Origin: Actinomycetales bacterium
Lineage (GTDB): Bacteria; Actinomycetota; Actinomycetes; S36-B12; UBA5976
DNA: 64,000 nt
Assembly (NCBI GenBank): GCA_027484085.1
Contig: JAIXQF010000004.1
Coordinates: 134,162-198,161, forward strand
Reading direction: 5' to 3'
The notes under the pieces: model-generated
Told to the model about the DNA's origin: nothing
Databases searched by the model: none
The model's input: the letters and a program-made list of their open reading frames with translations, nothing else
Translations under genes and position numbers: made by a program
Part shown: positions 13,081 to 32,475 of the stretch, one piece after another
Layout of the letters: each line of letters starts with the position of its first letter
Position numbering within the stretch: the first letter of the stretch is position 1

Positions 13081-13187
13081 GCGGAGACGAGAGGAACCGT
13101 CGCTTGCTGGCGCGGATAAGGCATTCAGCAGATAGCCAATCCGATTGCAAGTGATCGCGAGCGATCACGCAATCCGCTCCCAAATCC
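13081..13187 (-). repeat. tRNA-tail repeat element A (downstream of tRNA-Ser GCT)
   Basis: minus-strand start GGATTTGGGAGC, inner hairpin GATTGCGTGATCGC..GCGATCACTTGCAATC, end AGCAAGCGACGGTT fused to CCTCTCGTCTCCGC = tRNA 3' tail copy (15 nt exact). Confidence 0.75.
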
Positions 13188-13240: not shown

Positions 13241-13332
13241 TGGCGGAGACGAGAGGATTTGAACCTCCGAAGGGTTTGACCCCTTACCTCATTAGCAGTG
13301 AGGCGCACTCGACCGGACTATGCGACGTCTCC
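13241..13332 (-). tRNA. tRNA-Ser(GCT), CCA encoded
   Basis: cloverleaf with long variable arm; anticodon loop from CTCACTGCTAATGAG; acceptor GGAGAC/GTCTCC. Confidence 0.93.
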
Positions 13333-13383
13333 TCGAACCTTTAGATTAACTGGTTTTCTAGCCTTTGGCGAAAATCCGAGTTT

Positions 13384-14277
13384 GTGCCAGATGCCACCGC
13401 CCGCAAAGATTGGGACATGTCTAATTTCGGTGTTTCTTCATCAGTGGCCAACCTCAAGCGCGTGGCAGTTCGCCCACCTACTCGTGATGCGGATTATCAA
13501 GCCGCGCATTGGCTGGGTGCCCCAGAACAACTGAATCTCGATGAACTTCAGGCCGACCATGCTGCCTTCGTTGATCTTCTTCGGGAACTCGGTTGTGAAG
13601 TGGATGTCCTTCCAGAAGCCCCAGGACAGGCTGATGCCTGCTTTGTTTATGACCCAGCATTTACAACACCAAGTGGTGTGATCCAGTTACAAGGCGCAAA
13701 AGAAGCGCGAGTGAAAGAACCAGCAATGTTGACTGGTGACATTAACGCTCTTGGCATGCCAACTGTTGGAGTTTTAATTGGCGATGCAACTGCAGATGGC
13801 GGCGACATGTTTTGGCTCGACAACAAGACAGTTGCAATCGGTCGCACCTACCGCACCAACGAAGCTGGTGAAAAACAACTTCGTGAAATTTTTGCTGCCG
13901 AGGGTATTGAAGCACTTTCATTCCACATGCCTCACGCAATGGGACCAGAATATTGCTTGCACTTGATGAGTGTGATTTCACCAATTCGTGATGACTTAGC
14001 TGTCGTTTACGAACGTGAGGCACCCGTTACTTTGTTGCAAGAACTAGCCAAGCGCGGAATCAAAACCGTCTCTGTTCCAGATGAAGAATATATGTCGCTT
14101 GCCTGCAACGTGTTGGCAATCCGTCCCGGTGTTGTGGTGATGCCATCGGGTAATCCAATCACTGCGCAACTACTTCGTGATGCCGGAATTGAAGTTCACA
14201 TTTATAAAGCTGATGTGATCAATCGCGGTGAAGGCGGGCCTACTTGTTTGACGCGTCCGCTGTGGCGCGAAGACTAG
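13384..14277 (+). CDS. dimethylarginine dimethylaminohydrolase / amidinotransferase-fold hydrolase
   Basis: FVYDPAFTTPSGVI, GGDMFWLDNKTVAIGRTYRTN, HLMSVISPI, LACNVLAI motifs. Confidence 0.8.
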   Translation: MPDATARKDWDMSNFGVSSSVANLKRVAVRPPTRDADYQAAHWLGAPEQLNLDELQADHAAFVDLLRELGCEVDVLPEAPGQADACFVYDPAFTTPSGVIQLQGAKEARVKEPAMLTGDINALGMPTVGVLIGDATADGGDMFWLDNKTVAIGRTYRTNEAGEKQLREIFAAEGIEALSFHMPHAMGPEYCLHLMSVISPIRDDLAVVYEREAPVTLLQELAKRGIKTVSVPDEEYMSLACNVLAIRPGVVVMPSGNPITAQLLRDAGIEVHIYKADVINRGEGGPTCLTRPLWRED

Positions 14278-14477
14278 GGTTCATGCGAAGCGCTCTGAAG
14301 CAAAACTTCTAAAGGAAAAGCTCAGGAGCAGGAATCGGTCGATAACGGTTTTCCGATCGTCAGATCTTGGAAAACCGAATATGACTTGGGGATGACGCGG
14401 ATGGTCTTTGACGTAGAAGGTTTTGCGCAGGAGTGCGTCCGCTTAACTCGAAACTAATCTGTCACCTTCGGTGCCAG

Positions 14478-14519
14478 GGCGAGGGAGTAGCACACAGGTT
14501 GATCGCTACTGCGATCAAC
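14478..14519 (-). repeat. second, degenerate tRNA-Ser(TGA) tail copy plus hairpin, tandem to element B
   Basis: GGCGAGGGAG at 14478-14487 equals tRNA acceptor; perfect hairpin GTTGATCGC-TACT-GCGATCAAC 14498-14519. Confidence 0.55.
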
Positions 14520-14567
14520 GCGAGGGAGGGAACCGTCGCTTGCTTACGCAAGCTCCTCCCAAATCCC
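14520..14567 (-). repeat. tRNA-tail repeat element B (downstream of tRNA-Ser TGA)
   Basis: minus strand GGGATTTGGGAGG - GCTTGC-GTAA-GCAAGC hairpin - GACGGTT fused to CCCTCCCTCGC = tRNA 3' tail copy. Confidence 0.72.
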
Positions 14568-14626: not shown

Positions 14627-14627
14627 G

Positions 14628-14714
14628 CGGCGAGGGAGGGATTTGAACCCCCGGAGGCTTTTACACCTCAGACGCTTTCAAGGCGCCCGCATTCGGCCGC
14701 TCTGCCACCTCGCC
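14628..14714 (-). tRNA. tRNA-Ser(TGA)
   Basis: acceptor GGCGAGG/CCTCGCC, long variable arm, loop CTTGAAA. Confidence 0.93.
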
Positions 14715-32271: not shown

Positions 32272-32343
32272 GCCACCTTAGCTCAGGGGTAGAGCAACGC
32301 ACTCGTAATGCGTAGGTCCAGGGTTCAAATCCCTGAGGTGGCT
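32272..32343 (+). tRNA. tRNA-Thr(CGT)
   Basis: acceptor GCCACCT/AGGTGGC, loop CTCGTAA, T-loop TTCAAAT. Confidence 0.95.
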
Positions 32344-32377
32344 CGAACAAATCTTAGATTTGCGAGAGCCTCTATTT

Positions 32378-32475
32378 GGGATTTGGGAGCCGATTGCATG
32401 ATTTGTATGAATCATTTGCAATCGGAATGGCAATTTGATTTTGCTTTCTTACGACGGTTCTGACAGGTGGCTCGA
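32378..32475 (+). repeat. tRNA-tail repeat element C (downstream of tRNA-Thr)
   Basis: GGGATTTGGGAGC, inner hairpin CCGATTGCATGATTTGTATGAATCATTTGCAATCGG, end CGACGGTTC followed by AGGTGGCTCGA = copy of tRNA 3' end and flank. Confidence 0.75.

Follow-up and report, generated by a model that had tools for sequence, protein, structure and literature searches.

Why does a hairpin element of one family, followed by a partial copy of the neighboring tRNA, stand behind most of the tRNA genes of one stretch of DNA? The window analyzed here is a 64,000-nucleotide stretch of an Actinomycetales genome. ARAGORN finds four tRNA genes in it, and three of these four carry the element in a constant orientation to the tRNA, as the first-pass annotation had counted; every sequence that it quoted was found where it had been placed. 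Elements A and C have a long hairpin, and element B belongs to a short type that is more widespread. The features are, by position in the window:

32272..32344, plus strand: tRNA-Thr(CGT), host gene and putative dock of element C (ARAGORN, Rfam RF00005)
32324-32330, plus strand: T-loop TTCAAAT of tRNA-Thr(CGT)
Between 32331 and 32332, plus strand: tRNA-Thr insertion point AAATC^CCTG (sister genome G010 versus the window)
32332..32344, plus strand: tRNA tail CCTGAGGTGGCTC, the regenerated 3′ end carried by the proximal unit (sequence, G010 comparison)
32345..32377, plus strand: short hairpin CAAATC/GATTTG in the terminator position, and spacer (sequence; same layout in other copies)
32378-32389, plus strand: element C 12-mer GGGATTTGGGAG (sequence)
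32379..32389, plus strand: element C left foot GGATTTGGGAG (sequence)
32390..32425, plus strand: element C long-type hairpin CCGATTGC...GCAATCGG (homologs, covariation, fold score)
32426..32450, plus strand: element C linker from hairpin to right foot (homologous linker in other long-type copies)
32451..32460, plus strand: element C right foot ACGACGGTTC (sequence)
32461..32475, plus strand: element C displaced tRNA tail copy TGACAGGTGGCTCGA, with an apparently older T-stem and the same acceptor strand
14627..14714, minus strand: tRNA-Ser(TGA), host of element B (ARAGORN)
14530..14566, minus strand: element B, short type, GGATTTGGGAGGAG-CTTGCGTAAGCAAG-CGACGGTTC (sequence)
14519..14529, minus strand: displaced tail copy CCCTCCCTCGC behind element B (sequence)
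13241..13332, minus strand: tRNA-Ser(GCT), host of element A (ARAGORN)
13094..13187, minus strand: element A, long type, GGATTTGGGAGC ... CGACGGTTC (sequence)
13081..13093, minus strand: displaced tail copy CTCTCGTCTCCGC behind element A (sequence)

The order at element C is tRNA-Thr(CGT), short hairpin, spacer, left foot, long hairpin, linker, right foot and tail copy. Within its left foot, GGATTTG is the reverse complement of CAAATCC in the T-loop. The tail had been described as an 11-nt copy of the tRNA-Thr 3′ end, which holds for AGGTGGCTCGA at 32465-32475, a repeat of 32336-32346, but not for the T-stem part, where the copy reads TGAC against CCTG in the present tRNA-Thr. Several sister species retain the TGAC stem, which appears to be an older allele. 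Behind element B (14460-14520, minus strand) lie another, degenerate copy of the tail, TACTCCCTCGCC, and the palindrome GTTGATCGC/GCGATCAAC, apparently remnants of an older unit.

Anatomy of the element

We drew the anatomy from 82 distinct short-type copies located at most 130 bp behind a tRNA, which bear out the earlier proposal of a single family with an orientation fixed relative to the tRNA. The tails had also been called tRNA-specific; they are 90% identical to their own tRNA, compared with 47% to other isotypes. Nearly all short-type copies end in GGATTYG on the left and CGGTTCC on the right. Read as its reverse complement, the left foot reproduces the T-loop of the tRNA that hosts it, and the two covary in all 76 readable cases: tRNAs with AAATC pair with a TTT left foot (60 times) and those with GAATC with TTC (16 times). 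A CTC left foot stands behind the one GAGTC tRNA, and three Thr copies have another left end. Between the feet, the hairpin arms are unrelated from copy to copy yet complementary, with a mean stem of 5.2 bp versus 0.6 in shuffles, and the base pair at the hairpin foot covaries (G-C in 62/72, A-T in 6/72). We do not claim an outer pairing of GGATTYG with CGGTTCC, which has a T-T mismatch; a K-turn reading of the element foot is possible on paper.

The loops are mostly GNA or GNNA. Triloops are GNA in 14 of 22 cases (P = 2e-11) and tetraloops GNNA in 9 of 15 (P = 2e-7; both binomial, with shared ancestry ignored), and four of these nine tetraloops fall outside the RNA-type GNRA rule. For the long type, the paired hairpin substitutions noticed in the window were confirmed by the covariation check that the first-pass annotation had named, with double compensatory changes at 7 of 13 pairs among 12 homologs. 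Element C itself has a single-stranded DNA fold z of -3.5. Hairpins of the d(GCGAAGC) type are extraordinarily stable as DNA (PMC10527192, and general knowledge). The combination of GNA/GNNA loops with arbitrary complementary arms points to folded single-stranded DNA.

Distribution of the family

Taken alone, the 12-mer gave 7 matches with up to 2 mismatches where 5.7 were expected, which is not significant, but its association with tRNAs and tails is. Searches for the family used patterns built on the feet, with the reversed pattern as a control that gave no or nearly no matches. The element was found with these patterns behind tRNAs in 19 of 60 relatives, in 41 of the 166 genomes of the order (Nanopelagicales genomes among them), and in 19 of 395 genomes spread over the class, representing 13 of the 138 genera sampled. 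Across Nanopelagicales and the class, the host tRNAs are Ser, Met, Ala, Pro, Leu, Arg and Thr, and a survey of tRNA 3′ flanks in the window's own genome located more of them behind Ala(GGC), behind Met(CAT), where two stand in tandem, and, in a variant form, behind Ser(GGA). The common short type consists of GGATTYGGGAGGAG, any stem-loop, and CGACGGTTC. The long type, with homologous hairpin and linker, occurs behind Ser, Thr and Pro tRNAs of the genus; thus, the same long element stands behind different tRNAs, with the local tail each time. All genus matches with readable context lie behind a tRNA, and none is dispersed in intergenic DNA.

That no named repeat has this design, as had been stated, agrees with Rfam, where the locus matched only tRNA at the gathering threshold and only tRNA-derived or sub-threshold chance hits in a relaxed search. 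Open-access papers on the element and its analogues yielded no description of it. Viral contigs gave no match to the full motif and 18 to a looser one, all lacking stem or tail; we consider these 18 as chance and reject viral carriage. Matches outside Actinomycetota, which lacked the stem and tRNA tail, were not counted, as about 100 are expected by chance (our estimate).

Other arrangements were also seen. A variant foot, GGATTTGAGGAGGA-hairpin-(TGAC)GGAG followed by a TCC tail, is found at L048 (tRNA-Ser(GGA)), L342, L338 and L341, where the right end has changed together with the left. Behind tRNA-His(GTG) of the window's genome (L023), a perfect 30-nt copy of the T-arm and acceptor end lies about 117 bp downstream, accompanied by two copies of a different hairpin module, CTGACGGCCTGCTGAGCGAAAGCGGCAGGACGTC; this is possibly a second element family. 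The same genome has inverted and direct tRNA 3′-end copies behind tRNA-Gly(TCC) (L012) and tRNA-Phe(GAA) (L011), in a layout that differs from the main family. On the reverse strand of L064 (7661-7810), an array of ~38-bp repeats (GCGAAGCGACGGTTCCTCTCCCCGC plus a 14-bp spacer) repeats the tail and right foot without the left foot, and is open in several frames.

Insertion history at tRNA-Met and tRNA-Thr

The repeating unit comprises a tRNA tail, terminator, spacer and hairpin element, and measures ~110 bp (range 60-130 bp). By comparison with sister genomes, units were inserted exactly at the T-loop RAATC^C, the newest beside the tRNA, and the tRNA end was regenerated each time. For example, tRNA-Met and its terminator stand bare in two genomes with empty sites (G017, G006), while the window's genome (G000) carries two units at AAATC^C, with the native tail and terminator preserved distal to them. 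In G013 these two units are joined by a third nearer the tRNA; this third unit, common to G001, G007 and G016, copies the native terminator and spacer. The second unit, with a similar terminator and spacer, has different hairpins in G000/G013, G001/G007 and G004. Similarly, at the window's own tRNA-Thr, the sister genome G010 holds the window's unit and one more, exactly at GGTTCAAATC^CCTGAGG. Within the window's genome, elements occur on 6 of 20 RAATC tRNAs and on 0 of 23 others (hypergeometric P ~0.006).

RAATC^C and GGTTC^C have TCC in common, which leaves the exact base of the cut ambiguous. Once the insertion point is set at RAATC^C, there is no need to suppose that five bases of the T-loop were lost at the right junction, and that reading was dropped. 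We also rejected a group I or tRNA-intron reading, with GGATTYG as guide and the tail as exon, since the proximal tRNA is complete. Overall, the aligned genomes show, at the level of sequence, precise serial T-loop insertion with tRNA regeneration, one hairpin element per unit and a left foot that covaries with its target. This insertion pattern is strong; the recombination mechanism set out below is an inference. The serial insertions, the inverted T-loop copy in the left motif and the related sites that bound gene cassettes were all invisible to the first-pass annotation.

Gene cassettes bounded by the sites

In the window's genus, units are mostly empty; sister families have gene cassettes of 1–6 kb closed by the same sites. 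In one sister family, displaced 3′ halves of tRNA-Thr, beginning at the anticodon loop, contain the short element within their T-loop. The ortholog of the window locus in G085, with topA, tmk and holB as neighbors, holds a 1.1-kb phd/parE toxin-antitoxin cassette between the intact tRNA-Thr and the site, and in G083 this cassette is flanked by two sites separated by 1.0 kb. The genes in front of the site are Fic genes in G152 and G153 and AbiEi/AbiEii in G143. Two sites, each an element (hereafter E) with its tail, lie 4.5 kb apart behind tRNA-Met in L064 (a block of 4.4 kb) and 5.7 kb apart behind tRNA-Ser in L112 (5.6 kb), with metabolic genes between them; judging by shared downstream sequence, L131 seems to be the L064 locus without the block. 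Gene-bearing cassettes bounded on both sides number only four (G085, G083, L064 and L112). No integrase gene was recognized in the 1.1-5.7 kb cassettes read, and the small units are only 60-130 bp.

Such loci could also be scars of tRNA-targeting islands, in which a past tyrosine integrase duplicated the tail (attR), the island body was lost, and the hairpin is a REP-like repeat that settled there. By definition, an island end is marked by a displaced 3′ fragment of the tRNA (PMC4383910), and the toxin-antitoxin and Rieske cargo is typical of islands. Furthermore, the Thr cassettes duplicate the tRNA from the anticodon loop, a classical sublocation; since ordinary islands start there as well, these cassettes could be islands to which E was added later. 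However, the position of E is always precisely that of the tail junction, and the left motif of E changes in step with the T-loop; the units are small (~110 bp) and nested, with no integrase found beside them. None of this is expected of random secondary insertion. We regard the island account as unlikely, though it retains some weight.

A 400-bp "cassette" in G076, absent from G087, was rejected: with its inverted repeats, it is the end of an IS481-like transposon. IS481-like transposon ends (GTCCCGGGACATCGTTAACCCC inverted repeats) lie directly behind the Thr-type tail in L366, L367, L368 and L372, and this site is an insertion hotspot for such transposons. About 150 bp before the Thr-type site, L365, L368, L370 and L268 share a stretch of 100-150 bp (82-86% identical) while their cassette genes differ; the stretch may belong to the recombination site. 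On another contig of the window's genome (C6; 13,655 bp), tRNA-Ser(GCT) is present at 261-349 and 13373-13461, on the same strand and near both ends, an arrangement suggestive of a ~13-kb tRNA-Ser island or of a circular form.

A proposed mechanism and the search for a recombinase

Our preferred reading, to which we give about an even chance, is an integron-like, tRNA-anchored cassette system in which E works like attC. What stands behind the tRNA would then be the right-hand terminus of a small mobile unit that had entered the tRNA gene. As the genome comparison shows, such units enter tRNA genes whose T-loop reads TTCRAATC, at the boundary of RAATC with the 3′ strand of the T-stem; they regenerate the tRNA 3′ end and move the former tail downstream, and repeated rounds build an array with the newest unit next to the tRNA. 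E, composed of GGATTYG-GGAGGAG, an arbitrary stem-loop and CGACGGTTC, would probably be a folded single-stranded DNA recombination site with an attC-like function, its fold presumably given by the hairpin and the tandem-GA foot. GGATTYG may pair with, or imitate, the T-loop half-site and so direct insertion there. The hairpin strand would be the recombining substrate, joined by a recombinase acting in trans to the tRNA T-arm, which would play the part of attI.

A search for a dedicated recombinase, covering integron integrase in the 166 genomes of the order and Y1 and tyrosine recombinases in the genus, found none. Integron integrase (TIGR02249 above cut-off) was detected in 0 of the 166 genomes, the E-bearing ones included. 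Genus genomes have only about two tyrosine recombinases each, XerC/XerD-like, and we infer that XerC/XerD are the only ones apparent in most of them. It also counts against the cassette reading that no circular intermediate was seen.

The Y1 search bears on another candidate, a REP-like element moved by a Y1 (HUH) transposase, with GGATTYG guiding cleavage at RAATC^ as in IS200/IS605. Guide-like covariation with the T-loop, insertion after RAATC, a right end of GTTC and DNA-type loops would all suit it, as would the GGAG-hairpin-CGA core, which resembles REPs. Yet Y1_Tnp (PF01797) was found in 0 of 23 genus genomes, though many of these have young species-specific units; E is confined to tRNA tails and not dispersed, and the unit carries a tail. 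This makes a Y1-driven element improbable. We consider it very unlikely that E is an RNA device whose read-through GGAUUYG masks the tRNA's CRAAUCC while the second tail competes for the tRNA body, controlling 3′ maturation. The rtT RNA of E. coli tyrT is a loose precedent, and the exact T-loop complementarity with covariation and the conserved tail copies would fit, but E lies behind strong terminators, its loops follow the DNA (GNNA) and not the RNA (GNRA) preference, species differ by gain and loss of units, and E is found as well in displaced tRNA halves beside unrelated DNA. Simple tandem duplication, arising from slippage or from unequal recombination, with template switching as the source of the junction hairpins, would match the exact head-to-tail repeats of some units (L077, L125, L181) and unit U0 at tRNA-Met, which copies the native terminator and spacer, but is scarcely credible because the feet GGGAGGAG/CGACGGTTC are conserved across the whole class and cannot stem from local templates.

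Relation to known systems and significance

In integrons, the single strand of attC is recognized by its structure and not its sequence (PMC2727003). As in integrons, the sites described here have a variable palindromic center and conserved ends, and each cassette has a single site at its 3′ end; cassettes bounded by sites occur in tandem and include toxin-antitoxin genes, in few examples (G085, G083, L064, L112); and insertion at a fixed primary site is polar, newest first, in the tRNA-Met and tRNA-Thr comparisons. Unlike in integrons, the primary site is a tRNA T-arm, and every cassette brings a replacement tRNA tail. The R boxes of attC are GTTRRRY / RYYYAAC, which the ends GGATTYG and CGGTTCC do not match, and no IntI was found. 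With no integron integrase in 166 genomes and no R boxes, the system is not an integron.

Like tRNA islands (Islander; T-loop and anticodon-loop classes), the units regenerate the tRNA 3′ end, and a displaced fragment marks their far end; unlike islands, they are mostly gene-free, ~110 bp long and without an integrase, and the displaced fragment has a structured hairpin in its T-arm. A GGAG-type foot beside a short palindrome and a hairpin at the DNA level recall REP/BIME palindromes, but E differs from REP/RAYT systems in being tRNA-bound, with an unconserved stem sequence and no RAYT in the genus. In E. coli, the tyrT locus likewise has tandem repeats following a tRNA and opening with a copy of that tRNA's 3′ end. 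E differs in having no Rfam match to rtT RNA, and to our knowledge the tyrT repeat has neither an E-type hairpin nor a T-loop complement.

Site-specific cassette insertion at tRNA genes is of a known kind, and there is a substantial chance that the element is a system of its own. More tentatively, it may be a class-wide, tRNA-docked cassette system of Actinomycetota, independent of integrons, with a folded single-stranded DNA site that carries a T-loop complement and is moved by a recombinase, possibly the host's XerC/XerD. If this is true, tRNA genes would serve as docks for gene cassettes without an integron, and the hairpin site would carry its own address. It would also explain the common, so far unexplained, partial tRNA copies behind actinobacterial tRNAs. 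The pattern GGATTYGGGAGGAG-hairpin-CGACGGTTC would then provide a sequence handle for mapping cassette arrays with toxin-antitoxin and other genes, and the identity of the enzyme that recombines folded DNA hairpins with tRNA T-arms would become a question accessible to direct test.
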